DNA of 35,562 nucleotides from a virus: positions 1-35,562 of the IMG/VR virus record IMGVR_UViG_3300034018_001613; one strand, written 5' to 3'. The notes under the pieces were generated by a model, which was given only the letters and a program-made list of their open reading frames with translations, did not search any database and was not told where the DNA came from. The position numbers and the translations under genes were made by a program. Below are positions 1 through 23,422 of the stretch, piece by piece. Every line of letters begins with the position of its first letter. Within the stretch, counting starts at the first letter, position 1.

Positions 1-318
1 AGCTCTGTCAATCAGTGGATTTTAAAAGAAAGTAAGTGGTTTAAAATTTCTTATTCTTTAGCGGAAGATAAATTTAAACAATTGTATTTTGCTCGTAAGA
101 GTGATAGGTTTACTAAACCAGCTGAATCGCTTCGTAAAGAAAATGAAGAGAAATTCAGTCTACAAGCAATGGATCAAAAGTTGTGGGGTATACTTGATAA
201 GTATGTACCAAAATTTGCTATAGAAAATTCATTTGTTTTACCCAAATTAAAAGCACTTAATACAACAGAAACTAAAGAAGAACAAAAGATTGTTCTGCCA
301 AAACTAACGATGTTATAA
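1..318 (+). CDS. C-terminal part of an unidentified protein, possibly a glycosyltransferase (5' truncated)
   Basis: The frame is open from the first base of the window to a TAA at 316-318, giving about 105 residues, so the start lies outside the window. An internal TTG at 82 could be read as a start but nothing supports it. The visible part is hydrophilic and Lys/Glu-rich, with no catalytic motif. It ends in two related short segments, LPKLKAL and LPKLTML, that look like a small terminal repeat. The next gene starts one base after the stop, so it belongs to the same transcription unit as the glycosyltransferase genes. A glycosyltransferase tail is a guess from context only. Confidence 0.5.
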   Translation, partial: SSVNQWILKESKWFKISYSLAEDKFKQLYFARKSDRFTKPAESLRKENEEKFSLQAMDQKLWGILDKYVPKFAIENSFVLPKLKALNTTETKEEQKIVLPKLTML

Positions 319-319
319 T

Positions 320-967
320 ATGTTTGTATCATATCTAGTCACAACACATAATGAAACTGATTGTTTGGACTCATTGTTGTCTAAATTAATGAGTTTTAAA
401 AAAGATAACCACGAAGTTGTTTTATTGGATGATTATTCGGATAATCCAACTACAATTTCTATAATTGAGAAGTATAAATCCTCTGTTAATTTTCAACAAA
501 AGAAATTACAGAATGATTATGGCGCTCATAAAAATTATGGTATTAGTTTGTGTAAAGGTGAATGGATATTTCAAATCGATGCGGATGAATTACCAACCGA
601 TGTTCTTCTTGAAAATATAGATATATTGTTACAATCTAATGCAGGCAATGAAGCATTGTGGTTACCCCGACTAAACTATTTTGTTGGGGTAACACAAACA
701 GACATTCAAATGTGGGGTTGGAATTATCACGATGGAATGATTAACTTTCCTGATTATCAATCTCGTCTTTTTAAAAATCTTCCTCATATTAGATACGAAC
801 GAAGATTACACGAAAAGGTTGAGGGTTATACGTCTTATGCTTTTATACCTGCTCAGAAAGATGTTGCTTTGATTCATAACAAAACAATGGAAAAACAAAG
901 AGAAACAAATATGAAATACAACAAAAACTTCAGCCTTGATGAAAACAAGGGTTACGCTGTAAAATAA
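320..967 (+). CDS. Glycosyltransferase family 2 (GT-A fold)
   Basis: This 215-residue protein has the usual GT2 layout. The N-terminal strand SYLVTTHNE is followed by the nucleotide-binding acidic pair in LLDDYSD (Asp37-Asp38), and a DxD metal/sugar-nucleotide motif sits in FQIDADE (Asp87, Asp89). It should transfer a sugar from a nucleotide-sugar donor in the cytoplasm; donor and acceptor cannot be read. The segment with SRLFKN and RYERRLHEKVEG resembles the acceptor region of SunS/WaaE-type GT2 enzymes, from family knowledge. It is short for GT2 and has no membrane segment, so it is likely soluble. It starts one base after the upstream stop, with no Shine-Dalgarno. Confidence 0.85.
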   Translation: MFVSYLVTTHNETDCLDSLLSKLMSFKKDNHEVVLLDDYSDNPTTISIIEKYKSSVNFQQKKLQNDYGAHKNYGISLCKGEWIFQIDADELPTDVLLENIDILLQSNAGNEALWLPRLNYFVGVTQTDIQMWGWNYHDGMINFPDYQSRLFKNLPHIRYERRLHEKVEGYTSYAFIPAQKDVALIHNKTMEKQRETNMKYNKNFSLDENKGYAVK

Positions 968-968
968 T

Positions 969-1544
969 ATGACTATCGACGAACTTTTAAAAGATATACC
1001 GGATAAATTTGAACATAGCACCACTACAAGTCATAAATTTAAACGTGATGTATTTGAGTTTTTTGACAAGCCTGAATTTAAACAAAGTGTTTGTTTAGAA
1101 ATAGGATCTAATTTAGGATACTCTACTAGAATTTTAAGTTATTTGTTTAAAGAAGTGGTAGGTTTCAATTTGGAAAGTGCAAAAGAAGCTATTGTGTTTA
1201 ATAAACATCGTACAAATGTAAGATATTATACACAAGACGTATATAATACTCAGTTACCATTGGACTATGGAGATGTATTTTTTATAGATGCGCAACATAC
1301 TTATTTCGCCGTTATTGATGATACCATTAGATCTCTCAAGTTTAAATCTACAAACGGATTAAAGAAGTATTTCATTTATGACGATATTGGAGCATTTCCA
1401 GAATTAAAACAGGCTATGGACGATTTAATAAAAAATGAATACATTAAAATAGTAAAACCAATTGGTTATAGTCCAGATGAAACTTTTATTAGTAAACACC
1501 CAAAATTAAGTGCTTACGAGGGATATATTTGCGTTGAGGTATAA
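969..1544 (+). CDS. Class I SAM-dependent methyltransferase-like protein
   Basis: This 191-residue protein has a Rossmann-like motif I, CLEIGSNLGYSTR (about residues 40-52), and a motif II/III acidic stretch ending FFIDAQHTYFAVIDD, as in small Methyltransf_24-type enzymes. A second acidic YDDIGAF follows. Together these suggest SAM binding. It sits between a GT2 gene and another methyltransferase-like gene, so sugar O- or N-methylation of a glycan intermediate is the most reasonable role, but that is inference. The ATG is one base after the upstream stop in the context AAAATAATATG, with no Shine-Dalgarno. Confidence 0.7.
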   Translation: MTIDELLKDIPDKFEHSTTTSHKFKRDVFEFFDKPEFKQSVCLEIGSNLGYSTRILSYLFKEVVGFNLESAKEAIVFNKHRTNVRYYTQDVYNTQLPLDYGDVFFIDAQHTYFAVIDDTIRSLKFKSTNGLKKYFIYDDIGAFPELKQAMDDLIKNEYIKIVKPIGYSPDETFISKHPKLSAYEGYICVEV

Positions 1545-1547
1545 TTT

Positions 1548-2195
1548 ATGAATAACATTGAACTAAGAAAAAAATACGGCGATCATCCTGAGAATCCGAT
1601 ATATGCATATCCAGATCATTATTTTGCTAATAAAGATGGATTCACTATGCACATCACAAACTGGTTGACATTTTTATCAAAATTTGAAAATGTTCCCAAT
1701 CTTCAATTTTTGGAAATAGGCACAGGAAATGGTAGATCGTCTGTATGGACATTTGAAAATATTTTAACACATCCGAGTTCCAAGTTAATAACTGTTGATA
1801 TAACAGAAAATCTACATTACAAAAAAGGCGCTAAATTTAAAGGGATGGAGTTGGAGGAAGATATACTAGTATCAGTCAGACAAAACTTACAGCCTTATAT
1901 AGATCAAAATAAATGTGAATATGTTTTGGAAGATTCAAAGTTATTTTTGAAAAAATTCAATCCAAATATGGAAAAAATTCTAGATTTTGTTTATATAGAC
2001 GGATGTCACGAACCGGATCATATAATCTATGAATCTTGTTTATGTTTTGAAATGTTAAAGCCTGGCGGATATCTTTTGTTCGATGATTATGGTTGGGGAA
2101 ATTGTAGATATGGAATAGAATCTTTCTTATTATGTTATCAAAGCAAAATAAAAGTATTATATAAAGACTGGCAAGTACTAGTGGAGAAATTATAA
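1548..2195 (+). CDS. Class I SAM-dependent methyltransferase (Methyltransf_24-like)
   Basis: The 215-residue product has a clear motif I, LEIGTGNGRSSVW (about residues 55-67). The strand LITVDIT carries the acidic residue expected to contact the SAM ribose. A post-motif DFVYIDGCHEPDHI is followed by LKPGGYLLFDDYGWG, which matches the typical LkpGGxxxxDD pattern of Methyltransf_24 proteins. The substrate is unknown; a sugar hydroxyl in the glycan built by this locus is plausible. It is the most canonical of the four methyltransferase-like genes in the cluster. The three-base gap upstream shows it is co-transcribed. Confidence 0.82.
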   Translation: MNNIELRKKYGDHPENPIYAYPDHYFANKDGFTMHITNWLTFLSKFENVPNLQFLEIGTGNGRSSVWTFENILTHPSSKLITVDITENLHYKKGAKFKGMELEEDILVSVRQNLQPYIDQNKCEYVLEDSKLFLKKFNPNMEKILDFVYIDGCHEPDHIIYESCLCFEMLKPGGYLLFDDYGWGNCRYGIESFLLCYQSKIKVLYKDWQVLVEKL

Positions 2196-2199
2196 TATT

Positions 2200-2757
2200 A
2201 TGAGTAAATATGGATTATTAGACCCAGGAACGTGCATACCAGTATTAGAAGTTGCATTTGCAGTATACCAAATAAATTCGGTATTGGAATTTGGATGTGG
2301 TATATGGAGCACTGGTTGTTTTGTTAGAAATAGCAAACAGACTACATCTATCGAAAATGTAGAAGAATGGGTAAAATTTGTAAAACAAGAATACAGTCAC
2401 AAAAATAATTTGGATGTTGTTCATTATACAAAACCAATGAATGAATACTTCACAGAAAATAAAGAAAGTTATGATCTAATTTTCATAGATGGAAATGACC
2501 GAAAAGAATGTTTACAAGCCGCATTTTATAGAAGTCCGTTAATTGTTTGCCACGATATGCATACTAACGAGTTTAAATGGCAATCAGTTAATGTTCCAAG
2601 TGACTATAATTTAATGTTATATACAGGATGTGAACCTTATATAACAGGCATATTTGGACACAAAGATATACTCCTAAAAGAAAACATCTTGAATCGTAAA
2701 AATTACAAACATAAAAACACATATATCGACGAAAACTTTTGGGTAACAAGAAATTAA
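2200..2757 (+). CDS. Class I methyltransferase-like protein
   Basis: This 185-residue protein has motif I VLEFGCGIWSTG near residues 28-39, then TSIENVEEWVKFV (beta2 acidic residue) and YDLIFIDGNDR. This is the same arrangement as the 185-residue product at 7696-8253 (ILEFGCG, SIEHNMDWL, YDLIIVDGPNG), so the two are probably paralogues of one small methyltransferase-like family. The fold is well supported; actual methyl transfer is family inference. It lies four bases after another methyltransferase-like gene, giving three in a row. The Cys in GCG and the short C-terminal half are features of this subfamily. Confidence 0.7.
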   Translation: MSKYGLLDPGTCIPVLEVAFAVYQINSVLEFGCGIWSTGCFVRNSKQTTSIENVEEWVKFVKQEYSHKNNLDVVHYTKPMNEYFTENKESYDLIFIDGNDRKECLQAAFYRSPLIVCHDMHTNEFKWQSVNVPSDYNLMLYTGCEPYITGIFGHKDILLKENILNRKNYKHKNTYIDENFWVTRN

Positions 2758-2763
2758 AAATAT

Positions 2764-3486
2764 ATGAAAAACGTAATAATATTTCAAGATTTCGTTGACA
2801 CTATCACATACGGTCGTAATTATAAAATCGAAGAGTTGTATAAATATTTCCGTGCACAAATTGATAATAGTTTAAGATTTGGTTGGAATCCCAGTGATAT
2901 CGTAGTTGTAACCAATTTGGATTTTTCTTATAAAGATGTTACTATTGTAAAAACAAATAGACTGTGTAGATACAACAGATATTTCAATAAACAATACGGA
3001 ATCTGTGAGTTATTAGAAGAAAATTTAATAGACGATGATTTTTGGTTTCACGATTTCGATGATTGGCAAATTAATAAATTTGAATTTCCCGAATTCGACG
3101 GTGTAATTGGTATGGCAAAGTATATCAATGATACACAGTGGAACACAGGATCAATTTTTATTAAAAAATCAAGTGTTAATATTTGGAGACTGATCGTAGA
3201 TTTTATGGATGCAAATAAAGAACATCTTAAAAATCAAGGTGATGAAAATATAGTTAACTATGTTTATCAACAATATTTAAGCGAACTTCACCCATTCTTT
3301 TCACATCTAAATACCAAATACAATGTTGGTGTAACTGGATTTAAATATAGATATGATATGGCTGAAAAACCAGTGTGTATATTGGCATTTAAACCAGATG
3401 ATGCTGTTGGATATAATCTGATGTTAAATAATAACTTGATTGATACTGAATTGCAGAGTATATTTACTGAACATAAATTAATATGA
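2764..3486 (+). CDS. Predicted GT-A-type nucleotide-sugar transferase
   Basis: This 240-residue protein has no textbook signature but fits a GT-A fold. An N-terminal beta strand (VIIFQDF) leads to a central acidic FWFHDFDDWQ near residues 91-100 that could serve as the metal/nucleotide-sugar site. A later WNTGSIFIKKS resembles the NGGVLFFNKSH of the product at 6196-6960 and the NSGVLILNKNH of that at 6957-7709. That shared pattern argues for a common glycosyltransferase-like family. Donor and acceptor are unknown. Its stop overlaps the next start (3483-3486, ATGA), suggesting translational coupling. Confidence 0.55.
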   Translation: MKNVIIFQDFVDTITYGRNYKIEELYKYFRAQIDNSLRFGWNPSDIVVVTNLDFSYKDVTIVKTNRLCRYNRYFNKQYGICELLEENLIDDDFWFHDFDDWQINKFEFPEFDGVIGMAKYINDTQWNTGSIFIKKSSVNIWRLIVDFMDANKEHLKNQGDENIVNYVYQQYLSELHPFFSHLNTKYNVGVTGFKYRYDMAEKPVCILAFKPDDAVGYNLMLNNNLIDTELQSIFTEHKLI

Positions 3487-4469
3487 TCATTCAGAATAAA
3501 TATGCAATTGGTGTACACGTAATGTTCTATGAAATAGAGATGTTATCAACATACGTCGATGGTTTGTTGAATCTTTTATCAACAGTAGATAACAAAGAAA
3601 ATGTTTATTTAGATTTTTCTTTTAATACATCACAGTTTTTTGAAAAAATAGATACTTCGAAAACATCCAAAGACGATCTTACAGATAGATTTGAGATTGA
3701 ACTGTCTAAATTAAAACAACTGCCTAATTTACATTATAAAATCATAGATAATGATAATGAATTTTATACCCAAACAAATTACCGTAGAGAATTTAATACT
3801 AAATATTGCGAAAAAGTTAATTATTTAATCTGGGGAGAAACTGATAGTTTATTTCCAAAGGAAGCTATTATATCATTAGAACAATTAACGCCTGTAGTTA
3901 GAAAACAAGGACTATATAGGTTCATAGCTTGTTTCGCTGATAGAAAACTATGGGATAATAGTTGGGACGTTACTGTACATCCTAAGTTTATAAATCATAG
4001 ATACGATGATAAGGATGTTGATAACATCAATCAGGCCAAATCTTGTATGTCAATCGAACAAATGAATCTGATTAATTCAGAAATAAAAGAAATTGATGTA
4101 CAGACGATCAATTATCCAAAGATCGATGGTTCTTGTTTGGTATTGACCTCGGATTTAATTAAAAGTGGAGTTAATATACCCCCTTGTTTTATTCATAATG
4201 ACGACGAAAGTTTGTCAATGACGGCACAAAAAATACTAGGAGATAAGTATTTACAAATAGTATTTAAAAATGTATTGAAAGTACACGCTCGTAGACATCC
4301 GCATAAACGTATGTATATTGCAAATGAAAATAATCCCAGAGGATTTTGTGGAAACGAAAAAGGAGATTGGTGGCAAGTTTTCAAACAAATGTCACAACAC
4401 AATCTAAATACACTTTTTAATAATACCGGCAAATTTTATACTTACGAAGATTTTAAAAAGAATATATGA
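3483..4469 (+). CDS. Predicted glycosyltransferase-like protein
   Basis: The 328-residue product starts in a four-base ATGA overlap with the gene before it and ends in another with the gene after it. It begins IGVHVMFYEIEMLSTYVDGLL, like a GT2 N-terminus. It has an acidic loop LIWGETDSLFPKEA where a GT-A protein would carry DxD (here ETD), and a later FIHNDDESLSM typical of the acceptor-side acidic motif. No membrane segments are visible. It may act on the same glycan as its neighbours. The assignment rests on general architecture and context, so the family is uncertain. Confidence 0.5.
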   Translation: MIIQNKYAIGVHVMFYEIEMLSTYVDGLLNLLSTVDNKENVYLDFSFNTSQFFEKIDTSKTSKDDLTDRFEIELSKLKQLPNLHYKIIDNDNEFYTQTNYRREFNTKYCEKVNYLIWGETDSLFPKEAIISLEQLTPVVRKQGLYRFIACFADRKLWDNSWDVTVHPKFINHRYDDKDVDNINQAKSCMSIEQMNLINSEIKEIDVQTINYPKIDGSCLVLTSDLIKSGVNIPPCFIHNDDESLSMTAQKILGDKYLQIVFKNVLKVHARRHPHKRMYIANENNPRGFCGNEKGDWWQVFKQMSQHNLNTLFNNTGKFYTYEDFKKNI

Positions 4470-5419
4470 AAATTTGTTTTGTTAGTCAAAATGGCCACTC
4501 TGGTAAATTGTCCAGAGATTTTCCTAATTGTCGTACAGAATTTGCTTGGCAACTTGCACTTAATGCGGATCATTTTCCTATTCAATCTCTTCTTGATAAT
4601 AAAGATAACGTTTCTGGGTATGATGTCGTTATTGTAATACTACCAAAAAAATTGGAAACTATAGATACAGTAAGATTATTGGGTGTGGTGAAAGCTATTG
4701 GTAAAAAAGTAACAGTGATGCAAGAAGGTCCAGCTTGGTATTATCAAGACTATAATTATACAAACCAAGTTAATTATATTAATTTCCTAAGTTCGATGGA
4801 CTTTCTGTTAACTCATAATAAGAGTGATATTTCCTACTTCAAGGGTATATTTAAAATGCCAACGTTCAATCTTCAATCGTTAATGATAGAAGATACAGTT
4901 AAAAATGTACCCCGTGAAAATAATGGTATGCCTATTATAGGCGGTAATTTTTGTAGTTGGTATGGTGGCGTAGACAGTTACTTTGTGTCACAAAACTTCA
5001 ATAAACCAACTTTCATTCCCAGTATGGGTCGTAAAATAGAAAATGAAGAACAATTTCCTAGCTTACATCATCTACCATATATGATGTGGAATGAGTGGAT
5101 TAAAACACTTGCCAATTTTAATGTGGGCGTACACTTAATGCGTACGCATGCGGCGGGTACATTCGCTCTTAATTGTGCTTATCTGGGTATACCTTGTATC
5201 GGATATAAAGGATTAGATACACAAGAAACTTTACATCCTGACTTGAGTGTTAATATAGGTGACATTGAAAAAGCAAACGAATTGGCAATTAAATTGAGAG
5301 ACGATAAATCTTTTTATAATCACTGTTCAACATCATCTAAGGATTTATATCAAATATATTATACAGAAGAAAAATGGTTGAGTGATTGGAATAGAATTTA
5401 TGAGCAAATTAAAAACTAA
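4466..5419 (+). CDS. Predicted GT-B-fold glycosyltransferase
   Basis: This 317-residue protein begins MKICFVSQNGHSG, a Rossmann-like strand-loop typical of GT-B enzymes. Near its C-terminus it has MRTHAAGTFALNCAYLGIP, then CIGYKG. That is the usual donor-binding region, where a small-residue loop is followed by an A(Y/S)LGIPxIG segment. No membrane helix is seen. It should use a nucleotide-sugar donor in the cytoplasm. Translation is coupled to the gene upstream by ATGA and its last bases overlap the sugar dehydrogenase gene that follows. Confidence 0.65.
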   Translation: MKICFVSQNGHSGKLSRDFPNCRTEFAWQLALNADHFPIQSLLDNKDNVSGYDVVIVILPKKLETIDTVRLLGVVKAIGKKVTVMQEGPAWYYQDYNYTNQVNYINFLSSMDFLLTHNKSDISYFKGIFKMPTFNLQSLMIEDTVKNVPRENNGMPIIGGNFCSWYGGVDSYFVSQNFNKPTFIPSMGRKIENEEQFPSLHHLPYMMWNEWIKTLANFNVGVHLMRTHAAGTFALNCAYLGIPCIGYKGLDTQETLHPDLSVNIGDIEKANELAIKLRDDKSFYNHCSTSSKDLYQIYYTEEKWLSDWNRIYEQIKN

Positions 5420-6203
5420 GATAGGAATTGTTGGTAATGGATATGTAGGTAAAGCATTCTACAATTTTTTTAAGAATCACTACGAGGTTTTTATATATGA
5501 TCCGGCATATGATTCATCAAACACTAAAGAGGACATCAATAAGTGTGATTTAGCAGTAGTTTGCGTTCCTACGCCAGAAAATGAAGACGGTAGTTGTAAT
5601 ACAACAATTGTTGAAGAAAGTATAAGCTGGATTCAAACTCCTCTGATTCTTTTAAAATCAACAGTTGAGGTTGGTACCACTGATAGATTGATTGAGAAAT
5701 TTAAAAAGAATATTGTGTTTAGTCCTGAATTTGCCGGTGAATCCAAACACTGGACTCCTGAATCTTTCACGAATGATGTTAAACAAACACCGTTCTTTAT
5801 TTTTGGTGGTAAAAAAGAGCTTTGTTATAAAATCATTGAAATTTATACACCGATTACTGGTCCAAGCAAAACCTATAGAGTTACCGATCCAATAAACGCA
5901 GAATTAACAAAGTATATGGTAAATACTCATTTAGCTTTGAAAGTTGCTTTTTGTAATGAAATGTACGATTTATGTGAAAAACTAGGTACAAATTATTACG
6001 AAGTTAGAGATATGTGGTTATTGGATCCCCGCACAACAAAATCTCATACAGCTGTGTTCACAGGTGAACGTGGATTTGGCGGAAAATGTTTTCCAAAAGA
6101 TACTAAAGCTCTTGTAAAATTAGGCGATAAAGTTGGTATGGATTTGTCTGTGCTAAAAGCAGCAATTACAAGCAACGAAAAAATGTTGAAATTGAATGAA
6201 TAA
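5400..6203 (+). CDS. Short UDP-glucose/GDP-mannose dehydrogenase-family protein
   Basis: An NAD-binding motif IGIVGNGYVGKAF (GxGxxG, residues 12-17) is followed by family signatures VVCVPTPENEDGS, LLKSTVEVGTT and FSPEFAGES. GFGGKCFPKDT carries the catalytic Cys at about residue 230. These enzymes oxidise C6 of a nucleotide sugar to the uronate. At 267 residues it keeps the NAD domain and central helical domain but lacks the C-terminal UDP-binding domain of typical 400-plus-residue enzymes. I chose ATG 5400; an in-frame GTG at 5382 would overlap the upstream gene more and adds six residues that are not family-like. The end overlaps the next gene by eight bases. Confidence 0.85.
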   Translation: MSKLKTKIGIVGNGYVGKAFYNFFKNHYEVFIYDPAYDSSNTKEDINKCDLAVVCVPTPENEDGSCNTTIVEESISWIQTPLILLKSTVEVGTTDRLIEKFKKNIVFSPEFAGESKHWTPESFTNDVKQTPFFIFGGKKELCYKIIEIYTPITGPSKTYRVTDPINAELTKYMVNTHLALKVAFCNEMYDLCEKLGTNYYEVRDMWLLDPRTTKSHTAVFTGERGFGGKCFPKDTKALVKLGDKVGMDLSVLKAAITSNEKMLKLNE

Positions 6204-6960
6204 AAATTGTATAGTAATGGTAGCAATTCAAGATGAAGGGTCTAAGTTTGATCATCAGAAATATTTCAATGTATCAAAACAGTGCTGGCAAGCTTATTGC
6301 AAAAAAAACAATATTGATTTTATTGTCATAGATAAAAAATTACCAGATGTAAAATTCTGCGTATGGCACAAAGAGTTCGTTTTTGACTTTATAGGTGACA
6401 AATATGAAAAAATAGCATTGGTAGATTTTGATACATTGGTACATTGGAATGCACCAAATTTCTTCGATTTGTATGAAGATGAATTTTGTGGAGTATTAGA
6501 AAATGAAAATTTATTCTGGATAGATAATAGTCTAAGAGCATTCAAATCTAGTTTTTCCGAGTTAAAAGATGTGGAAATTAAATTATCAGAATATATCAAC
6601 GGCGGCGTTTTATTCTTCAATAAATCACATAAAGAATTTTTCAATAAACTCAAAGATTTTTATACGAGAAATAAATCTACATTTGATAATTGGAACGTTC
6701 CACACACAGGAAAAGAACAAACGATATTAAATTTATATCTTAAAAAAGAAAATATTAATAAAAAATACCTTGATTTTAGATTCAATACAATGCGGTTAAT
6801 TAAAAACGACTGGTTACAACATAACTGGCAATTGAAAGAAGACGAAACGCCTTTTTTCATAAAATACTCTTATATCTGGCATTTCACAGGTTGTTCTATA
6901 GAAGAAAGAAGTTCATTAATGTTAAACATTTGGGATCAAACAAAACATCTTTACGTATGA
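6196..6960 (+). CDS. GT-A-type glycosyltransferase, first of a tandem pair
   Basis: This 254-residue protein has an N-terminal strand NCIVMVAIQ and then IALVDFDTLVHWNAPNFFDL, where DFD is a DxD-type metal/nucleotide-sugar motif as in GT8-like enzymes. INGGVLFFNKSHKEFF provides the usual substrate-loop Gly-Gly. The next product (6957-7709) matches it in order and spacing: LIVDADTIVHPNAPNLFDI, NSGVLILNKNHKDFF. The two are therefore tandem paralogues. Donor and acceptor are unknown. It overlaps the preceding dehydrogenase by eight bases and the following gene by ATGA. Confidence 0.7.
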   Translation: MNKNCIVMVAIQDEGSKFDHQKYFNVSKQCWQAYCKKNNIDFIVIDKKLPDVKFCVWHKEFVFDFIGDKYEKIALVDFDTLVHWNAPNFFDLYEDEFCGVLENENLFWIDNSLRAFKSSFSELKDVEIKLSEYINGGVLFFNKSHKEFFNKLKDFYTRNKSTFDNWNVPHTGKEQTILNLYLKKENINKKYLDFRFNTMRLIKNDWLQHNWQLKEDETPFFIKYSYIWHFTGCSIEERSSLMLNIWDQTKHLYV

Positions 6961-7709
6961 ATGTAGTCTATATAATTAACATTGCTACTGATAAAAAACC
7001 CGGTAGAACAGTTCCATATAAATTTGGAATTGAATCTTGGAGACGATATTGTAACAAGCACAATGCTAAATTGGTTGTATTGGAAGAACCAATTCTTCCA
7101 TATGAAGACTTACGACCCAATTGGCATAAAGTCTTTATCTTTGATTTGTTAGAACAATCAAACATTGAGGTAGATAAAATTTTAATCGTGGACGCTGATA
7201 CTATTGTTCATCCAAATGCACCCAATCTCTTTGATATCGCAGAAGACAAATTTTGTGTGGTCAATAATATAGGATCTTACGATTGGTTATTTAGAAGTGT
7301 TGAAAATTATAAAAAATACATCTTCAATAATTATGAATTCGATATAACCAAGTACTTTAATTCTGGGGTATTAATTTTAAATAAAAATCACAAAGACTTT
7401 TTCAACAAAGTTAAAGATTTTTATTTTTCAAATAAAGACAATTTGATAAAGATGCAAGAGACATTTTTTACAGGTACCGATCAACCGGTATTGAACTTTA
7501 TGTGTCAGATTGAAAACATCGATATGAAATTCTTGCCATATGAATATAATATGCAAGATTTACATCGTAGAGAAGCACTAAATGAAAATATGCCATACTT
7601 GGATATGGGTTATATATTTCATTTTAATGCTATACCAAATAACGGCGATAATTCCAAAACTATGTATTGGATGGAAGCTACATTTAATAAAATATATGAT
7701 ACAAATTAG
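6957..7709 (+). CDS. GT-A-type glycosyltransferase, second of a tandem pair
   Basis: The 250-residue product starts at the ATG of an ATGA overlap (6957-6960). An upstream in-frame start at 6891 would run deep into the preceding gene and adds a basic, unrelated leader, so I reject it. It has VYIINIATDKK at the N-terminus, the DxD motif LIVDADTIVHPNAPNLFDI and NSGVLILNKNHKDFFNKVKDF, each with a counterpart in the gene before. FTGTDQPVLNFM is a typical acceptor-side acidic motif of this fold. Duplication followed by divergence probably gave two enzymes adding different sugars or linkages. Confidence 0.7.
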   Translation: MNVVYIINIATDKKPGRTVPYKFGIESWRRYCNKHNAKLVVLEEPILPYEDLRPNWHKVFIFDLLEQSNIEVDKILIVDADTIVHPNAPNLFDIAEDKFCVVNNIGSYDWLFRSVENYKKYIFNNYEFDITKYFNSGVLILNKNHKDFFNKVKDFYFSNKDNLIKMQETFFTGTDQPVLNFMCQIENIDMKFLPYEYNMQDLHRREALNENMPYLDMGYIFHFNAIPNNGDNSKTMYWMEATFNKIYDTN

Positions 7710-8253
7710 TCAAAAATATCCAACATTAATCAAAGGATCAATTGGAGAAAAGGCGGTAGATTTAATAAGATCTTTATTACCCCAAGGTTCTTCCATTTTA
7801 GAATTTGGATGTGGGGTTACCACCAAGTTGTTATTAAATTGGTATAACGTATACTCAATTGAACATAATATGGATTGGTTGAATCATCCCAATGCATATC
7901 ACGTGTCATTAAAACAATACAATGATACTGATTTTAAAACTCCAGAAGATATATCGTGTCTTCCATTTTATGAAAAACAAGTTGCTTGGTATGATCCAGA
8001 TAAACTATCCAGTGTATTAAAATTGGTACCCAAATACGATCTAATCATTGTAGACGGACCAAATGGCAACTATGGTAGAGGTGGATTTTATACGCATTTA
8101 AATTTATTTAATACCGACGCTCATATGGTATTTCACGATCTAAATAGACAGGCTGAGATGGAGTTGATCAAAAAAGTATCTGCGAAGGTTGGTAGACCAG
8201 CTTTTATTTTGGATGATGACGACAAAACAGGAGTTATAAAATCTAACAATTAA
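7696..8253 (+). CDS. Class I methyltransferase-like protein
   Basis: This 185-residue protein has motif I SSILEFGCGVTTKLLL, then YSIEHNMDWL and YDLIIVDGPNGNYGRGG, and a late HMVFHDLNRQ. It resembles the product of 2200-2757 in length and motif order. I place the start at ATG 7696, which overlaps the end of the glycosyltransferase gene by 14 bases. An in-frame start at 7582 would put 38 extra residues over that gene. The substrate is unknown; modification of a sugar in the glycan is a contextual guess. It is followed by a 41-base gap, the longest in the + strand train. Confidence 0.68.
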   Translation: MIQISQKYPTLIKGSIGEKAVDLIRSLLPQGSSILEFGCGVTTKLLLNWYNVYSIEHNMDWLNHPNAYHVSLKQYNDTDFKTPEDISCLPFYEKQVAWYDPDKLSSVLKLVPKYDLIIVDGPNGNYGRGGFYTHLNLFNTDAHMVFHDLNRQAEMELIKKVSAKVGRPAFILDDDDKTGVIKSNN

Positions 8254-8294
8254 AAAAAATTTCATAGTGAATTCTATAGTAGTTATAATAAACT

Positions 8295-9158
8295 ATGAGA
8301 AAATATAACTTCACAAACAAAACATTTTTAGTTACAGGCGGCAGTGGGTTTTTAGGCAAACCACTTGTTAAACGCCTTTTAAACGATGGCGCAAAGGTCC
8401 GTGTTTTATCCAGAAATGAAGGTAAATTAATCGACCTAAAACAATCTTTTCCTTCTATTGAAATATTGACGGGTGATGTTTCGGATCCATTTGAGGTGCG
8501 TCAAGCTATGAAAGGTGTTAACGGAGTATTTCATTTAGCCGCATCAAAACACATTGGCATTGCGGAAAAACAAGTACGTGAATGTATCAAATCAAATACA
8601 CTAGGATCGTTGTACATTTTGGAAGAATCTCTTAACCACGAATTGGAATTCGTAATTGGTATTAGCACCGACAAAGCTGCGCAAGTGTCTGGTGTATATG
8701 GTGCTTCTAAACTATTGATGGAACGATTGTTTAAACAGTTTGAACAACTCAATGCAAATACAGATTATCGTATAGTTCGATATGGTAACGTATTATATTC
8801 AACAGGATCCGTTTTATGCAAATGGCGAGATTTGATCAGCGAAGGTAAAGATTTAATTGTCACTGAACCTGAAGCTACTAGATTCTTTTGGACGGTTGAT
8901 CAAGCAATTGATTTGATTTATAACTGTTTGGAAAACTGCACAGATTCTTCTCCGTATGTTCCAACTATGAAGGGAATGAGCATAGGAAATCTATTGGAAG
9001 CACTTATTCAAAAGTATGCACCAGTTGGCATCCGACCAAATGTTAAAGTTATTGGATTGCAAGCGGGGGAAAATAAACACGAAAAAATTCTTGAAAATGG
9101 TCTATACAGTAACGAAGTTGAACAGTATACCATTGAAGAAATTAAACAACTCATCTAA
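8295..9158 (+). CDS. NAD(P)-dependent nucleotide-sugar SDR, CapD/PseB-like dehydratase/epimerase
   Basis: The 287-residue protein has the extended-SDR motif TGGSGFLG (residues 14-21), a conserved ISTDKAA (123-129) and the catalytic YGASK (Tyr135, Lys139). STDKA followed by YGxSK, and the later TRFFWTVDQA, are hallmarks of the Polysacc_synt_2 group (CapD, PseB, FnlA), which act as UDP-GlcNAc 4,6-dehydratases or 5-epimerases. It is shorter than PseB or FnlA, so the exact reaction is unsure. Together with the DegT aminotransferase two genes downstream it could make a 4-keto-6-deoxy sugar for transamination. A TATAAT at 8284-8289 is too close to the ATG to be a convincing promoter. Confidence 0.82.
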   Translation: MRKYNFTNKTFLVTGGSGFLGKPLVKRLLNDGAKVRVLSRNEGKLIDLKQSFPSIEILTGDVSDPFEVRQAMKGVNGVFHLAASKHIGIAEKQVRECIKSNTLGSLYILEESLNHELEFVIGISTDKAAQVSGVYGASKLLMERLFKQFEQLNANTDYRIVRYGNVLYSTGSVLCKWRDLISEGKDLIVTEPEATRFFWTVDQAIDLIYNCLENCTDSSPYVPTMKGMSIGNLLEALIQKYAPVGIRPNVKVIGLQAGENKHEKILENGLYSNEVEQYTIEEIKQLI

Positions 9159-9973
9159 TGAAAATATTGGTTATAGGTGGAAATAGATTTGTTGGTAAAA
9201 AAGTCGCATATGAGTTAAGTAAATTGGCAAGTGTGAGTGTACTCAATAGATCTGGAACTGGTCCTGATAAAGTTAAAGTAATCAAATGGGATCGTAATGA
9301 ACCATTGACAATTGAAAATGATTATAATGTTATTTTGGATTTCTGCCTTTTCAAACCAACTCAAGCACAACATCTTAAAAATTGGTTAAAACCTAATCAA
9401 AAATATATCTTTATCAGTAGCGCAGCTGCGTATAAAGATGCAAATTGTTTGTCGTATAACGAAGATATGCCTATTGGTGGTTTATCTGGATTTGGCGAAT
9501 ATGGTGTTGAAAAGGCGGACTGTGAGAATATAGTTAAACAAATAGATACTAACTATATGATTATTAGACCGCCCTACATTGTTGGCCACGATTGTCCAAG
9601 ACCCAGAATAAGTTACTATATCAGAAATATAATCAATAATAGACCAGTAGAAGTTGCCGGTGATGGAAATAAATTATTGAGTTTTATATGGGTTAATGAT
9701 ATTGTTAATACACTAGTGGATATGTCTACTACTAATAAATATAATATTAAAGACAGTTATAATATTGTAAATGAAGATGTTTATAGTGCCAAAACTCTAA
9801 TTGAAGAAATAAGTATGTTTTTAAATAAAAAAGCAAATGTCATTAAAAATGGTACTAGTTCTCCATTTATCGATGAACATCTATTGTTATCTCCTTTAAA
9901 ATTAGGAAGAAAGTTTAGTAGCACCAAACAAAATCTACCTGGATTTTTCGATTATATTAAAAATACGTTATGA
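9158..9973 (+). CDS. Extended SDR, NAD-dependent epimerase/dehydratase-like
   Basis: This 271-residue protein starts with a Rossmann motif LVIGGNRFVGKKVA (GGNxFVG, residues 7-13), then ISSAAAY, then YGVEKADCE as the YxxxK catalytic pair (Tyr115, Lys119). IRPPYIVG follows, as in extended SDRs. The GGxRFVG variant is seen in SDRs related to plant CSP41 and some reductases, so the reaction could be 4-keto reduction or epimerisation of the nucleotide sugar made next door. Its first base is the last base of the upstream stop (TAATG), and it ends in an ATGA overlap with the aminotransferase. Confidence 0.78.
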   Translation: MKILVIGGNRFVGKKVAYELSKLASVSVLNRSGTGPDKVKVIKWDRNEPLTIENDYNVILDFCLFKPTQAQHLKNWLKPNQKYIFISSAAAYKDANCLSYNEDMPIGGLSGFGEYGVEKADCENIVKQIDTNYMIIRPPYIVGHDCPRPRISYYIRNIINNRPVEVAGDGNKLLSFIWVNDIVNTLVDMSTTNKYNIKDSYNIVNEDVYSAKTLIEEISMFLNKKANVIKNGTSSPFIDEHLLLSPLKLGRKFSSTKQNLPGFFDYIKNTL

Positions 9974-11112
9974 ATAAATTGTCAAGAACAAAACCTTATA
10001 TCCCCAAAGAAGACCACAAAGAAATATTGGATAGAATTGCGGATATTTTAAATACAGAGTCATTAGTTCAATCAAAGTATGTAGCTGAATTTGAAAATTT
10101 ATTCGCTAAATATTGTGGAACAAAATATGCAGTTGCAACTTGTTCTGGCGGAACGTGTTTGGAAGTAGCTCTAAGAGCATCTGGTTTAGTTGGTAAAAAG
10201 ATTATTGTCCCAACCCAAACGTTTATAGCAAGTGTAAGTGCAATTGTTCGATCCAACAATATACCCGTAATTGTAGATATAGATGAAAACACTCATTGTC
10301 TGAGTGCAGATATAATCGAAAGAAGTTTAGACAAAGATGTAGCCGGTGTAATGTTGGTTCATATGGCAGGATATATCACGCCTGACTATTACAATATTAA
10401 AAAATTATGTGATAAACACGGTCTTTTATTGTTTGAAGATGCTTCTCACGCATTAGGAGCTACTATTGATAATATTCACGCTGGAAACTTAGGATACGCT
10501 GGTTGTTTTTCATTATTTGCTACAAAAATTATAACCACAGGTGAAGGTGGAATAATCACTACCAATGATGAAAAATTTGCAGAAACTTGTAAGACATTGA
10601 GAAATCACGGCGCTGTCAGAAATCCAACACCAGTAAATGGTGTAGATTTTGGTGTAAGTTGTGAATTTATATCATCCAACTATAAAATGACAGAAATGGT
10701 TGCAGCACTTGGTATCAGTCAATTGAAACGGGTTAATGAATTTGTAGAAAAACGAAATGTTATAGCAAAAAGATACAAAGAAAAAATTACAAATCCAAAG
10801 ATTAAATTTATAGACGTTCCAGATAATATAACCAATACTTGGTGGCACTATATTATAGAATTACCAAGGTCTACAACTTTAAATGAAAGATCAGAAATTT
10901 GTAAAAAACTATTCTTAGAATATAACATACCCACAGCAAATGCTTATTGGCCAGCTTGTCATCAACAAAAGGTGTTTGAACCATACACTGTAAATCAAAC
11001 ATATGAATTAGCCGATGGACTTTTATCTAGACATTTATCCATTCCTATGTACGTAGAAATGACTATGGATCAAGTTGATTATGTTGCGGATGTAATTAAT
11101 AAATTTGTATGA
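9970..11112 (+). CDS. DegT/DnrJ/EryC1/StrS-family PLP-dependent sugar aminotransferase
   Basis: This is a full-length member at 380 residues. CSGGTCLEVAL (residues 58-68) matches the phosphate-binding loop, VPTQTFIASVSA the PLP-ring strand, and LFEDASHALGA carries the Asp (157) that pairs with the PLP nitrogen. CFSLFATKIITTGEGG contains the Schiff-base Lys186. The family transfers an amino group, usually from glutamate, to a keto-sugar nucleotide. The two SDRs directly upstream and the WbqC and PIG-L genes downstream fit amino-sugar synthesis. It is joined to both neighbours by ATGA overlaps, so the module is probably translated as a coupled set. Confidence 0.93.
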   Translation: MNKLSRTKPYIPKEDHKEILDRIADILNTESLVQSKYVAEFENLFAKYCGTKYAVATCSGGTCLEVALRASGLVGKKIIVPTQTFIASVSAIVRSNNIPVIVDIDENTHCLSADIIERSLDKDVAGVMLVHMAGYITPDYYNIKKLCDKHGLLLFEDASHALGATIDNIHAGNLGYAGCFSLFATKIITTGEGGIITTNDEKFAETCKTLRNHGAVRNPTPVNGVDFGVSCEFISSNYKMTEMVAALGISQLKRVNEFVEKRNVIAKRYKEKITNPKIKFIDVPDNITNTWWHYIIELPRSTTLNERSEICKKLFLEYNIPTANAYWPACHQQKVFEPYTVNQTYELADGLLSRHLSIPMYVEMTMDQVDYVADVINKFV

Positions 11113-11798
11113 TTGTAAGTATTCATCAGCCAAATTATTTACCGTGGATGGGATTTTTTGATAAAATAGCCAGAAGTGATGTATTTGTTATTTTTGACAA
11201 TGTTCAATTTCCCAGAGGAAAACAACATTTTGGACACAGAAATTTAATTAAGACAGACGGAGAACCTAAATGGTTAACAGTTCCATTAAATGGAAAAAGT
11301 GAATTGAAATCGTTTAATGAAATTGAAATTAATTACAACGGTTGGAGTGATAATCATTTAAACTTAATAAAAAACTTCTACAGAAAGTCAAAATACTTCA
11401 ATGTTTATTATGGCGATTTAGAATCAATTCTTAAAGTTAACTACAAAACGTTGTCAGAATTAAATAGTGCTTTAATTAAATATTTTTTAAATGTGATGGA
11501 TATCAAAACACAGGTTGTATTTTGTTCTGAAATATGTCCCAATGAAGTTTCTGGTGGTGATCGTATAATGTATTTGTTGAAAAAATTAAATGCTACAAAA
11601 TACATTTCTGGTACTGGACCAGGCTCAATGCGATATATCAACGAACAAGAATTTAAAGACAATAATATAGAATTGGTATGGCAACATTATACCCACCCTA
11701 AATACACACAATTATATGGTGACTTTAAACCGTATATGTGTATACTAGATTTATTGTTTAACGAAGGAACAAATAGTAAAAATATAATTTTAAATTAA
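11109..11798 (+). CDS. WbqC-like family protein
   Basis: The 229-residue protein begins VSIHQPNYLPWMGFFDKIA, which is the hallmark of the WbqC-like family (HQPxYLPWxGFF). FVIFDNVQFPRGKQ and the later GGDRIMYLLKKL and YISGTGP segments also fit. WbqC-like proteins occur in O-antigen and other surface-polysaccharide loci, commonly next to DegT aminotransferases, and are thought to help modify amino sugars; their chemistry is not firmly known to me. Here it directly follows the DegT gene with an ATGA overlap and precedes a deacetylase. Confidence 0.88.
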   Translation: MIVSIHQPNYLPWMGFFDKIARSDVFVIFDNVQFPRGKQHFGHRNLIKTDGEPKWLTVPLNGKSELKSFNEIEINYNGWSDNHLNLIKNFYRKSKYFNVYYGDLESILKVNYKTLSELNSALIKYFLNVMDIKTQVVFCSEICPNEVSGGDRIMYLLKKLNATKYISGTGPGSMRYINEQEFKDNNIELVWQHYTHPKYTQLYGDFKPYMCILDLLFNEGTNSKNIILN

Positions 11799-11799
11799 T

Positions 11800-12450
11800 A
11801 TGAAACGTGTAATGGCAATAGGCGCTCATCCTGATGATATTGAATTTGGCTGTGGTGGAACACTATATAACCACAAATTAAAAGGCGATTATGTGGTATA
11901 TGTATGTATGACCAATACAGAATCTGTAGACGGTACCAATGGAATATTATTGAGAACAGCTGAAGAAAATAGATTGGAAACTATTAATGCTGCTACAGTA
12001 TTGCAATGTGACGATGTAGAATTCTTACCATTTAAAGATCTACACATACCATTTAGTTTTGATTCAGTGAGTAAGCTTGAGAGCTTGATCAAAAAACATA
12101 AAATAGATACAATTTATACACATTGGGCAGGAGATGCAAATCAAGATCACATTTCCACATTCAGAACCACAATGGCAGCTGCACGATATATTCCTAATGT
12201 GTTTTGTTATGAACAAATACCAATTTCCAGAATGACAGAAAATCAAATGGACATTAATTATTATGAAAATATAGATAACTCATTTGATAAAAAAATCGAA
12301 GCATCTATGTGTCATAAAAGTCAAATTTCAAAATATGAAAAAGTTGGATTAAATGTAAAATCTAATTTGGAAATATTAGCGAGATTTAGGGGTATACAGG
12401 CTCAATGTAAATATGCAGAATCATTTAAAATACTTAAAATGGTAAATTAA
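11800..12450 (+). CDS. PIG-L family deacetylase
   Basis: The 216-residue product opens VMAIGAHPDDIEFGCGGTL, the zinc-binding (H/A)HPDD motif (residues 9-13) of PIG-L/LmbE hydrolases. THWAGDANQDH supplies a downstream metal-ligand His of the family. PIG-L enzymes remove the N-acetyl group from GlcNAc-type sugars. Beside a DegT aminotransferase and WbqC-like protein, it likely exposes an amine on an amino sugar so that another acyl group can be put there; that step is inference. The length is normal for the family, and the start is one base after the upstream stop. Confidence 0.88.
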   Translation: MKRVMAIGAHPDDIEFGCGGTLYNHKLKGDYVVYVCMTNTESVDGTNGILLRTAEENRLETINAATVLQCDDVEFLPFKDLHIPFSFDSVSKLESLIKKHKIDTIYTHWAGDANQDHISTFRTTMAAARYIPNVFCYEQIPISRMTENQMDINYYENIDNSFDKKIEASMCHKSQISKYEKVGLNVKSNLEILARFRGIQAQCKYAESFKILKMVN

Positions 12451-12452
12451 TT

Positions 12453-13397
12453 ATGATACTCAAAGTGAATCCTGAATTTGGCATCGAACTTGCATTAGCA
12501 ATACCATTTGCATATTGGTTACATCAAAACAATCAATTGGATGGTGTGGTTACTAGCAAAGGAATGAAACCATATTATTTCTTTTGTAATAATGTAAAAG
12601 AAGAATTTTTATCTAGGACAGTAGATAACGACGCTGCTTTGGTCGGAGTACCAAACAATTGGATACATCATAACGCATTATCAATAACAGGCAAAGAATA
12701 TCATCATTTGACTGCCGATGAACAAGAACAGGTTAATGGTGTATTGGATTTTAGTAAATGGATTTGTCCGCCATTCAAAGAATATTATCAAAATGATGAA
12801 TATAAATTTGATAAACCCGTAGTATTTATCACCAACAAATATAATATGGAACACAATGAAATTCCATTGGGTTATTTTAATATTCCATGTTTGTATGAAA
12901 TGTTTGATTATTTTAAAGAAAAGGGATACACTGTAATATACAAACGAGCTACTAATAAAGAAAAAGAATTTACTATAGATCAAAATGAGTATAATTCATT
13001 ACAATTAGGATATCACGATATTAAAGCCAACGTAGAAGGTATAGGCGTTATAACGGATTTTGAATTATGTAAGTATTTTGACAATGTGATATTGATAGAT
13101 GATTTGGTTAAAGAATCAAAGTATAATTACAATGAAACACAATTAAAAATAATGGCAAATTGTAGTAGATTTGTTACAGTTTGTGGCGGAAACTCAATAT
13201 TATCATCACTTTTTGGAGGCACAGTTCTTAGTTATATACATAAGGGAAAAGAATTACGCCCTAATTACTTTGGACCTAATAGTTATTTTCGTAAGCTTTC
13301 AAATGCTAACATCATTCCTGTAATAGACAATAGTGTTGTAAAAACAGGAGTTCACGATTATAGTCAATTGATGGAACAAGTAAAAATACAGTTTTAA
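12453..13397 (+). CDS. Unknown protein, possibly GT-B-like glycosyltransferase
   Basis: No catalytic signature is certain in this 314-residue protein. The C-terminal third has SRFVTVCGGNSILSSLFGG, then a loop with YIHKGKELRPNYFGPNSYF. This resembles the donor-binding half of GT-B enzymes, where a GGNS-type loop follows a hydrophobic strand. The N-terminal half contains NPEFGIELALAIPFAYWL, and FDKPVVFITNKYN lies in the middle. It lies between the deacetylase and a GT2 gene with gaps of only two bases, so a role in the same glycan pathway is likely. An alternative is a scaffold or modifying enzyme of unknown type. Confidence 0.45.
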   Translation: MILKVNPEFGIELALAIPFAYWLHQNNQLDGVVTSKGMKPYYFFCNNVKEEFLSRTVDNDAALVGVPNNWIHHNALSITGKEYHHLTADEQEQVNGVLDFSKWICPPFKEYYQNDEYKFDKPVVFITNKYNMEHNEIPLGYFNIPCLYEMFDYFKEKGYTVIYKRATNKEKEFTIDQNEYNSLQLGYHDIKANVEGIGVITDFELCKYFDNVILIDDLVKESKYNYNETQLKIMANCSRFVTVCGGNSILSSLFGGTVLSYIHKGKELRPNYFGPNSYFRKLSNANIIPVIDNSVVKTGVHDYSQLMEQVKIQF

Positions 13398-13399
13398 AT

Positions 13400-14602
13400 A
13401 TGAAAATTAGTTTTATTCAACCAAGCAGAAACAACCTAAAATATCTTAAATGGAGTTACGAAGCTATTCGTAAAAATTTAAGTCACAAAGAACATGAAAT
13501 CTGTGTTGCGGACGACTTCAGTAATGACGGTACATTGGAATGGTGCAAAGAAACGTCGGAAAAAGATCCACACTTCAAATTTATCCGCAACGAAGGTCCA
13601 ACCAGATTGGGTCATACAATTCTATATGACCGTCTTATAAACGAAGTAGCTACTAACGATGTGGTAATGATCTATCACGCCGATATGTATGCGTGTCCCA
13701 ACTTCGATAAATATATAGAAAAGTATATTCAACCAGGTACCATTGTTAGTCTTACCCGCATCGAACCACCTCTACATCCGCCAGGACCAGAAAAAATTGT
13801 ACAAGCCTTTGGCACAGAGACAGAAGAGTTTAATGAAGCTGGTTTATTGAAATGGTTCAATGATACTCGTCTGACAAGAAAAGACAAAACCACAGAAGGA
13901 ATCTTTGCGCCATGGGCCATTTATAAGAGTGATTTCCAATCTATTGGTGGTCACGATGATCTATACGCACCACAAAGCAAAGAAGACAGTGATATCTTCA
14001 ATAGATTCTTATTAAACGGATATAAATTTATACAAACGTGGGAAGGTTGCGTATATCATATGACGTGTAGAGGTAGTAGATATAATCCTACATTGACTAC
14101 AGTTGGAAAAGAAAGTGACGAATGGTTAGCTCAAAACAACCGCAGTGCTAGAAACTTCATTCGTAAATGGGGACATTTTGTTAAACACAATGATGTTATG
14201 AAGCCAATTGTACCTAACCGTTATGATGTAGGTTTCGTTGTACGTAACTGTGATGAATATAAACTAGCACTTTTGGAACCTTGGTGTGACACAATCTATA
14301 CAGATGTACCATATGACCGTTACATTAACGCTGAACAAAAAAATACAAAGTTTAATCTAACCAAAAAATTAAAGAGATATGAAGATCAAAAGTTGAACGA
14401 TGTTATTATCGAATTTGATGCAACTAAAATATCCAATGATAGCTTTGAATTCTTTAATATGATTCAATTAATGTTAGAAGATAGTGGTCAAGTAGGCACA
14501 CTTGAATATGATATATTCAAACTTAGCATTAATAAGTTAAATACTTATAACAAACAATTGATAGAAATAAAAGACGAATGGTATAATAAAAAATTGTTAT
14601 GA
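13400..14602 (+). CDS. Glycosyltransferase family 2 with C-terminal extension
   Basis: This 400-residue protein has a clear GT2 core: ISFIQPSRNN, the acidic pair in CVADDFSNDGT (Asp38-Asp39), then VVMIYHADMYACPNF with the metal-binding acidic residue at Asp95. APQSKEDSDIFNRFLLNG is the acceptor-side ED motif. About 120 residues after the core (from near residue 280) include VRNCDEYKLALLEPW and an Asp/Asn-rich tail, with no recognised domain. No membrane helices are visible. It is the last large gene of the glycan train and overlaps the start of a 55-residue ORF by ATGA. Confidence 0.85.
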   Translation: MKISFIQPSRNNLKYLKWSYEAIRKNLSHKEHEICVADDFSNDGTLEWCKETSEKDPHFKFIRNEGPTRLGHTILYDRLINEVATNDVVMIYHADMYACPNFDKYIEKYIQPGTIVSLTRIEPPLHPPGPEKIVQAFGTETEEFNEAGLLKWFNDTRLTRKDKTTEGIFAPWAIYKSDFQSIGGHDDLYAPQSKEDSDIFNRFLLNGYKFIQTWEGCVYHMTCRGSRYNPTLTTVGKESDEWLAQNNRSARNFIRKWGHFVKHNDVMKPIVPNRYDVGFVVRNCDEYKLALLEPWCDTIYTDVPYDRYINAEQKNTKFNLTKKLKRYEDQKLNDVIIEFDATKISNDSFEFFNMIQLMLEDSGQVGTLEYDIFKLSINKLNTYNKQLIEIKDEWYNKKLL

Positions 14603-16046: not shown

Positions 16047-16047
16047 A

Positions 16048-18132: not shown

Positions 18133-18162
18133 CTTACCAACAAATTTATAATAAGTCAAGCT

Positions 18163-21297: not shown

Positions 21298-21325
21298 ATT
21301 ATATCATCTTTATATTATATGTCAA
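21298..21325 (-). promoter_or_regulatory. Consensus sigma70 promoter for the winged-helix-like gene
   Basis: On the - strand, TTGACA (21320-21325) and TATAAT (21298-21303) are both perfect hexamers, 16 bases apart. The -35 lies within the final codons of the VWA gene upstream. Transcription would start about 40 bases before ATG 21250. Confidence 0.85.
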
Positions 21326-23399: not shown

Positions 23400-23422
23400 A
23401 ATAATTTATTTTCTATATGTTA

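Follow-up and report, generated by a model that had tools for sequence, protein, structure and literature searches.

The first 14.6 kb of the window, the 35,562-nucleotide stretch of a T4-like virus record analysed here, carry a train of sugar genes that appears to make up the right-hand part of a glycan locus, functional and exchangeable, in a lineage of uncultured T4-like phages. In the reading we favour, with a probability of roughly 0.55, an O-methylated oligosaccharide would be assembled in the cytosol on a soluble acceptor, for which a virion protein is the best candidate. As judged from sequence, the locus is functional and swappable, on the grounds of the genes present, their unbroken catalytic motifs, the purifying selection on them, their conserved order and the replacement of the cassette.

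Gene train and its T4-like setting

Positions 1-14602 hold 19 consecutive, tightly packed ORFs, all on the + strand, with five ATGA overlaps (3483, 4466, 6957, 9970 and 11109) and further short overlaps besides, in agreement with the initial annotation, which had described one + strand train with ATGA couplings. The extent proposed there was confirmed except for its start at position 1, since the train continues past the left edge of the window, which cuts through the partial gene g1. The left part of the train consists of the following genes.

g1, 1-318, + strand: C-terminal end of a GT-B glycosyltransferase; the gene continues to the left of the window
g2, 320-967, + strand: GT2 glycosyltransferase (PF00535, 3e-12)
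g3, 969-1544, + strand: class I methyltransferase with motif I (Methyltransf_24, PF13578, 1.1e-5, barely above the cut-off)
g4, 1548-2195, + strand: class I methyltransferase (Methyltransf_24, PF13578, 2.5e-13)
g5, 2200-2757, + strand: probable methyltransferase with motif I VLEFGCG (PF13578 sub-threshold)
g6, 2764-3486, + strand: putative GT-A glycosyltransferase, assigned solely from a DxD-like motif in FHDFDDW
g7, 3483-4469, + strand: putative glycosyltransferase, assigned from a DxD-like motif; WGE[TS]D invariant in the alignment
g8, 4466-5419, + strand: GT-B-like glycosyltransferase, from the alignment and weak BshA/WsaF C-terminal matches
g9, 5403-6203, + strand: short UDP-sugar dehydrogenase (PF00984, 4.2e-25; PF03721, 6.3e-11)
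g10, 6196-6960, + strand: GT8-like glycosyltransferase, aligning with g11 with DxD and HF invariant
g11, 6957-7709, + strand: GT8 glycosyltransferase (PF01501, 6e-7, scanned as 6891-7709); left edge of the swapped segment
g12, 7696-8253, + strand: probable methyltransferase with motif I ILEFGCG (PF13489 sub-threshold); absent from contigs L111-L113

The g1 fragment matched L021:16562-17887 (441 aa; phrog_2170 glycosyltransferase, 1.7e-14) at 41%, and the full-length gene encodes about 440 aa in relatives, of which the window has the C-terminal part only. The at least seven glycosyltransferase-like genes and four methyltransferase-like genes reported earlier were all present; three of the glycosyltransferases lie above the Pfam cut-offs, the others being weaker calls, and two of the methyltransferases exceed them, with g5 and g12 below. 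Neither g6 (Pfam and further profile comparison) nor g7 gave a family match, and the GT-B likeness of g8 reached E-values of only 0.02-0.09, which are sub-threshold. The dehydrogenase g9 (266 aa) is without the C-terminal domain and retains the catalytic Cys (GFGGxCxPKD); a 283-aa relative in contig L049 is similar to this short form.

The train adjoins a T4-like replisome, with gp62 and a dNMP kinase-like gene next to the sugar locus, and in relatives the locus lies beside the replication module wherever the flank is visible. The same synteny recurs in many viral contigs, which bears out the assignment of these genes to a phage, and gp23 is present in the relative G002. No tRNA was found in the window. 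Classical promoters and terminators were not in excess, sigma-70-like and terminator-like sites occurring at shuffle level, and Bacteroidota-type and T4-late promoter patterns were not above chance. Shine-Dalgarno motifs were likewise near the shuffle level in the window, G002 and G004, a level that is compatible with Bacteroidota hosts and no proof of them.

Predicted amino-sugar pathway

The right part of the train comprises a six-gene sugar-nucleotide core, g13-g18, and a terminal glycosyltransferase.

g13, 8295-9158, + strand: UDP-sugar 4,6-dehydratase of the FlaA1/CapE (inverting) type (Polysacc_synt_2, PF02719, 2.6e-59)
g14, 9158-9973, + strand: SDR sugar epimerase/reductase (Epimerase, PF01370, 9.1e-12)
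g15, 9970-11112, + strand: DegT-type PLP sugar aminotransferase (PF01041, 9.4e-94)
g16, 11109-11798, + strand: WbqC-family protein, function only predicted (PF08889, 2.4e-66)
g17, 11800-12450, + strand: PIG-L/Dac-type de-N-acetylase with AHPDD intact (PF02585, 1.6e-22)
g18, 12453-13397, + strand: GT9/heptosyltransferase-like glycosyltransferase, from its AlphaFold and Foldseek fold
g19, 13400-14602, + strand: GT2 glycosyltransferase, the last gene (PF00535, 2.1e-11); right edge of the swapped segment

The order SDR-SDR-DegT-WbqC-PIG-L noted earlier was recovered as 4,6-dehydratase, SDR, DegT, WbqC and PIG-L with catalytic residues intact, and the concern that most genes might have broken active sites was not borne out in the copies compared, which keep their catalytic motifs. 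The proposal of a modified amino sugar also agreed with the nearest solved relatives, which were FlaA1 (5e-40) and CapE (1e-38) for g13, perosamine synthetase (3e-46) for g15 and the N-acetyl-sugar deacetylase diacetylchitobiose deacetylase (9e-15) for g17. The g13 protein combines the Rossmann GxxGxxG motif with TDK...YxxxK including the Tyr, as in inverting UDP-GlcNAc 4,6-dehydratases. In all nine copies compared, STDK...YGASK of g13, GGxxFxG and YxxxK of g14 and the PLP lysine of g15 are kept.

Taken together, g13-g18 are predicted to make a UDP-linked 6-deoxy amino sugar. The g13 enzyme would dehydrate a UDP-HexNAc and probably invert its C5, g14 would epimerise or reduce the product, g15 would add an amino group and g17 would remove an N-acetyl group. 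The WbqC protein g16 probably forms an N-acyl or amino-acyl amide, and g18 is the candidate transferase for the finished sugar. A pseudaminic or legionaminic acid pathway was rejected: g13 scored 174.6 bits against the PseB cut-off of 407.75, g15 scored 252.6 against 423.5 for PseC, and Pfam detected no NeuB-type synthase or CMP-transferase domain in g1-g19. With g13 and g15 both scoring under these curated cut-offs, no specific sugar can be assigned.

The PF08889 match of g16 is full-length (residues 7-225 of 229), and its AF2 model (pLDDT 93) weakly resembles pantothenate synthetase (best Foldseek E 0.03). No functional information on the WbqC family was found in the literature, and g13-g18 offer a tractable setting for finding its function. 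The g18 model (pLDDT 75) matched 1psw (Foldseek E 3.7e-5, probability 1.00) and also WaaC and TibC. Profile searches of PDB sequences with g18, g7 and WbqC gave nothing usable, and the g18 profile had no match in 19 WbqC-carrying bacterial and archaeal genomes, which is uninformative.

Cassette exchange between near-identical phages

A comparison across related phages, suggested earlier as a check on cassette swapping, revealed such a swap between the window and contigs L111-L113, and in other relatives.

Exchangeable central cassette (g12-g18), 7709-13396, + strand: other sugar genes take its place in L111-L114, L118-L123 and L127-L129

The window and L112 share 97.8% nucleotide identity over 3468-7708 and 93% over 13589-16427, and the DNA between is non-homologous. 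The left junction falls at the exact end of g11 in all three of L111-L113, where the nucleotide match stops at 7708; on the right, the match resumes at 13396, the start of g19, in L113 and at 13589 in L111 and L112, so that the replacement in L113 is precise at gene boundaries. Between the same flanks, these three contigs carry a UDP-galactopyranose-mutase cassette. Across the relatives, the replacement cassettes hold UDP-galactopyranose mutase, a CapD-type SDR with an RmlD-like reductase, a C-methyltransferase, or asparagine-synthase-like genes, and some relatives have no cassette at all. The arrangement of the six-gene core itself is unchanged across 15 contigs, the window among them, with identities of 29-95% in distinct relatives. 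At least 285 viral contigs contain relatives of g8; a nucleotide search of phage records with the region gave no match, nor did g18 and g8 in 50,697 phage records.

Because near-identical phages have another sugar pathway in place of the central cassette, the locus behaves, at the level of its sequence, as a serotype locus. Bacterial O-antigen and capsule serotype loci likewise exchange a central sugar cassette within conserved flanks between near-identical genomes; the window locus differs from them in lacking Wzx, Wzy and priming membrane enzymes and in lying beside replication genes on a lytic-type phage. The gtrABC seroconversion clusters of temperate phages also have one sugar-specific gene that varies within a conserved frame. 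Their products are membrane flippases and transferases that act on the host O-antigen, whereas no gtr-type membrane gene was found here.

Among T4-like phages, the LPS gene clusters of the cyanophages P-SSM2, S-SSM7 and S-SM2 are likewise multi-gene trains of sugar-nucleotide enzymes and glycosyltransferases, described as being of unknown function in the relevant passages of PMC3037559. The P-SSM2 train (194.4-205.5 kb, + strand) resembles that of the window in its nucleotide-sugar epimerases, GT2, GT1, methyltransferases and overlapping genes. However, only two weak matches linked the cyanophage clusters to genes of the window and G004, and the positions differ, near hli03/phoH and tRNAs in cyanophages and beside gp62 and the dNMP kinase gene here. 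DegT, WbqC and PIG-L, all present in the window, are not annotated in the P-SSM2 stretches compared, and the cassette swapping between near-identical phages seen here is not described in the passages concerning those clusters. The Moraphages, large T4-like phages of Bacteroidota, are aquatic and metagenomic like the lineage of the window, with four core glycosyltransferase orthogroups and predicted Bacteroidota hosts (PMC12619734); the terms epimerase and aminotransferase are absent from the text of that paper, and the likeness is one of description.

Acceptor of the glycan and alternative roles

A hydropathy scan of about 175 ORFs from nine clusters detected no multi-spanning membrane protein of the flippase or polymerase kind, the contigs compared being fragments whose missing genes may lie elsewhere. 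The set expected of a Wzx/Wzy locus (flippase and polymerase with at least 10 spans, and a priming enzyme) was also not found in the nine. The glycan is most likely built on a soluble acceptor because a flippase, a polymerase and a membrane priming enzyme are missing from all nine copies. The flanking, mostly soluble GT2, GT8 and GT-B enzymes and the methyltransferases would work in the host cytosol, building the O-methylated oligosaccharide directly on a soluble acceptor and capping it, and a virion protein appears the likeliest such acceptor. Since neither lipid-carrier membrane machinery nor a dCMP hydroxymethylase was found in these incomplete genomes, the balance seems to tilt towards a soluble protein. 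More tentatively, a widespread aquatic lineage of uncultured T4-like phages may have a serotype locus to itself, in which a self-contained pathway in the cytosol would supply the phage particles with O-methylated oligosaccharides and the key sugar would be switched by cassette exchange, as bacteria vary O-antigens, with WbqC as an ATP-dependent amide ligase on the amino sugar. If the acceptor is the virion, the phages themselves would fall into serotypes, which would matter for recognition, for host range and for the ecology of phages.

Counting against this explanation, the lipid carrier and export could be provided by host enzymes. The locus would then alter the LPS or capsule of the infected cell, to exclude superinfecting phages or to protect against grazing, as proposed for the similar gene train of P-SSM2 in the part of PMC2984593 dealing with its LPS gene clusters. 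Cellular WbqC, DegT, PIG-L and SDR genes cluster in bacterial and archaeal glycan loci, and the synthesis of LPS and O-antigen typically involves GT9 and GT2 enzymes. We nevertheless regard such host-surface remodelling as rather unlikely: none of the nine clusters encodes a flippase-, polymerase-, phosphoglycosyltransferase- or Gtr-like membrane protein, and the repeated exchange of sugar type is not obviously explained by exclusion alone.

The neighbouring replication genes and dNMP kinase-like gene would also suit the attachment of sugars to modified phage bases as a defence against restriction, and sugar-modified DNA is known in T4-like phages (PMC6024577, PMC12838424). Such DNA hypermodification is improbable here, as a gene of the thymidylate synthase/hydroxymethylase family was absent from 11 of 13 records, the genomes being incomplete. 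dCMP hydroxymethylase belongs to the thymidylate synthase family with the characteristic Asn changed to Asp, and both family genes found in these incomplete genomes keep the Asn. This many glycosyltransferases, O-methyltransferases and swappable sugar pathways would moreover be excessive for a base.

Across the validly compared cluster genes, with a fused Gfo/FAD gene left out, dN/dS was 0.02-0.10, comparable to the 0.02-0.05 of UvsX, gp41 and NrdA. Non-functional filler for headful packaging, a possibility stated for the cyanophage clusters in the part of PMC3037559 that left open whether T4-like sugar clusters are functional or stuffer DNA, is thus scarcely credible and, as far as sequence can tell, is refuted in this lineage by these ratios, the intact motifs and the conserved gene order. 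In the present T4-like lineage, which is a different one, a functional and diversifying locus is indicated by the selection on its genes, by their catalytic motifs and order, and by the precision with which the cassette is replaced.

Content of the gene train and its six-gene core

The + strand from 1 to 14602 was filled by 19 genes (g1-g19), with ATGA common to five adjacent pairs, in agreement with the coupled train of the initial annotation. The glycosyltransferase-like, methyltransferase-like and sugar-nucleotide gene sets that it had described were also present, on calls of unequal strength. Pfam matches confirmed two GT2, one GT8, two Methyltransf_24, UDP-sugar dehydrogenase, Polysacc_synt_2, Epimerase, DegT, WbqC and PIG-L. 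Weaker calls were made for g10 (alignment with g11), g1 (a full-length relative), g8 (sub-threshold GT-B matches), g5 and g12 (methyltransferase motif I only) and g18 (predicted fold of E. coli heptosyltransferase II, E 3.7e-5, probability 1.00; model pLDDT 75), while g6 and g7 we only infer to be glycosyltransferases. The train extends left of the window, as relatives carry more glycosyltransferases upstream of g1. The UDP-sugar dehydrogenase (5403-6203, +) is short and without the C-terminal UDP-binding domain, which is likewise missing from a 283-aa relative in contig L049.

The nearest solved relatives of g13 were FlaA1 and CapE, both UDP-GlcNAc 4,6-dehydratases, and its signature STDK...YGASK was found in all nine copies compared; Tyr in this signature is the mark of inverting enzymes. 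The closest solved structure to g15 (DegT) was perosamine synthetase, with the PLP lysine in 9/9 copies, and the closest relative of g17 (PIG-L) was diacetylchitobiose deacetylase, with AHPDD kept. WbqC (g16) had no solved relative by sequence, and its model (pLDDT 93) came nearest, consistently but weakly (E 0.03, TM 0.34), to pantothenate synthetases, which are amide ligases using ATP. Given this weak likeness, an amide-forming role for WbqC is proposed as a hypothesis only. PseB and PseC identities were rejected, as both models were missed by a wide margin, and the core's sugar is thus left without a name.

The order g13-g14-g15-g16-g17-g18 was found again in 14 other contigs, in some of which g17 and g18 are separated by a radical-SAM gene (PF04055). 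This gene (L003:5057-6133) lies between PIG-L and g18 in relatives G002-G005 and L084, and is missing, with no scar, from the window and the near-identical contig G001. The side of the core on which accessory genes lay differed between contigs; these genes were g3, g7, g8, a Gfo/FAD fusion, the UDP-sugar dehydrogenase and a DUF2334 gene, read as a polysaccharide-deacetylase-like protein. Relatives of g18 occurred in 32 viral contigs and those of g8 in at least 285.

Cassette exchange and selection

Cassette swapping across related phages, a comparison suggested at the outset, was borne out. Contig L112 matched the window at 97.8% nucleotide identity over 3468-7708 and 93% over 13589-16427, with unrelated DNA between, and L111 and L113 showed the same pattern. 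All three had the left junction where g11 ends; the right one coincided with the g19 start in L113 and lay within g19 in L111 and L112.

Replacement cassettes in related contigs
L112, L113: g18-like gene and UDP-galactopyranose mutase (PF03275, 248 bits), replacing g12-g18
L111, L112: additionally, a further g18-like gene (33% to g18) and a DUF7487 gene whose start resembles a zinc finger
L122: single g18-like gene
L114, L129: g18-like gene, CapD-type SDR, RmlD-like reductase
L119: SDR, C-methyltransferase, RmlD-like gene
L121, L128: glycosyltransferase/asparagine-synthase-like set
L116, L125, L130: almost nothing

Cassette exchange in this phage locus follows the same logic as in a bacterial serotype locus. 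DUF7487/zinc-finger-like genes lie where swapped cassettes border g19 (L112:15158-15922, L128:18014-18610); these are possibly homing endonucleases and might promote the exchange. Two small genes 3' of the train (14763-15418), one for a membrane protein with three spans and one for a Cys-rich protein that matches COX6B weakly, hold their position beside the swapped cassettes.

Between the window and G002, dN/dS of g12-g19 was 0.02-0.09 at dS 0.7-1.5, and that of UvsX, gp41 and NrdA was 0.025-0.05. Between G003 and G004, cluster genes gave values up to 0.10 where informative, and g3 had no amino-acid change; the fused Gfo/FAD gene was left out, its value resulting from a frame error in the coordinates. 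Within the cluster, dS between these two jumped from 0.06 to 1.5, a sign of recombined segments. The initial annotation had named broken active sites in most genes as grounds against its reading; catalytic motifs were unbroken in the copies compared. Judged from these sequences, the cluster appears functional, not filler.

In T4-like cyanophages, large LPS gene clusters are already known and surface alteration has been proposed (PMC2984593). P-SSM2 has a similar train, but does not share the core. Moraphages, T4-like phages from aquatic habitats whose predicted hosts are Bacteroidota, have four core glycosyltransferase groups (PMC12619734). Within reach of our searches, what is new is the six-gene core, not found in cultured phage records searched with g18 and g8, together with the selection evidence and the precise cassette replacement.

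Probable acceptor of the glycan

The most economical acceptor would be a virion protein. When about 175 ORFs from nine clusters were scanned for hydropathy, proteins encoded inside the cluster had at most two membrane-like segments each, and those elsewhere on these contigs had at most five. No Wzx/Wzy-type export or polymerisation was thus encoded, which argues for a soluble target rather than self-sufficient surface polysaccharide synthesis, although the glycan could be built on host carriers. T4-type DNA glycosylation finds no apparent support in these incomplete genomes, as only two of 13 records had thymidylate-synthase family genes and both look like true thymidylate synthases.

For a virion protein, Ser/Thr-Gly-rich repeat proteins in the window and in G002 are possible acceptors, as a lead only:
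18163-19332, -, repeat protein with ANSFTGSISGGYAAFTNI-type units, 34% over 184 aa to the G002 protein
G002 118823-120313, Ser/Gly-repeat tail-fibre-like protein

Phage lineage and replication module

The window is the 35.6-kb record of a virus, and its right part carries, on the - strand, a T4-type replication module (gp32, UvsX, 5'-3' exonuclease/RNase H, gp41, NrdA, NrdB, gp62 and a dNMP kinase-like gene). In the relative G002 (132 kb), whose WbqC is 94% identical to the window's, a capsid gene of the T4 gp23 type was present. By UvsX, the closest cultured phage was Microcystis phage Mel-JY01 (50%), in which DegT and g18 had no match and the stretch around UvsX held no such glycan cluster. 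Shine-Dalgarno motifs were near background level, compatible with Bacteroidota hosts.

Further genes were observed in this part:
17212-18159, -, UvdE-type UV endonuclease within the module, 71% identical to G002 versus >90% for adjoining replication genes
19391-20575, -, single DruA-like protein (PF14236, 1.1e-23), kept in G002-G005
21315-24397, -, 694-aa protein containing a DASAS motif like that of vWA domains and adjoining a MoxR/CobS-like AAA ATPase (PF07728), the two resembling a CobS/CobT-like or MoxR-vWA pair
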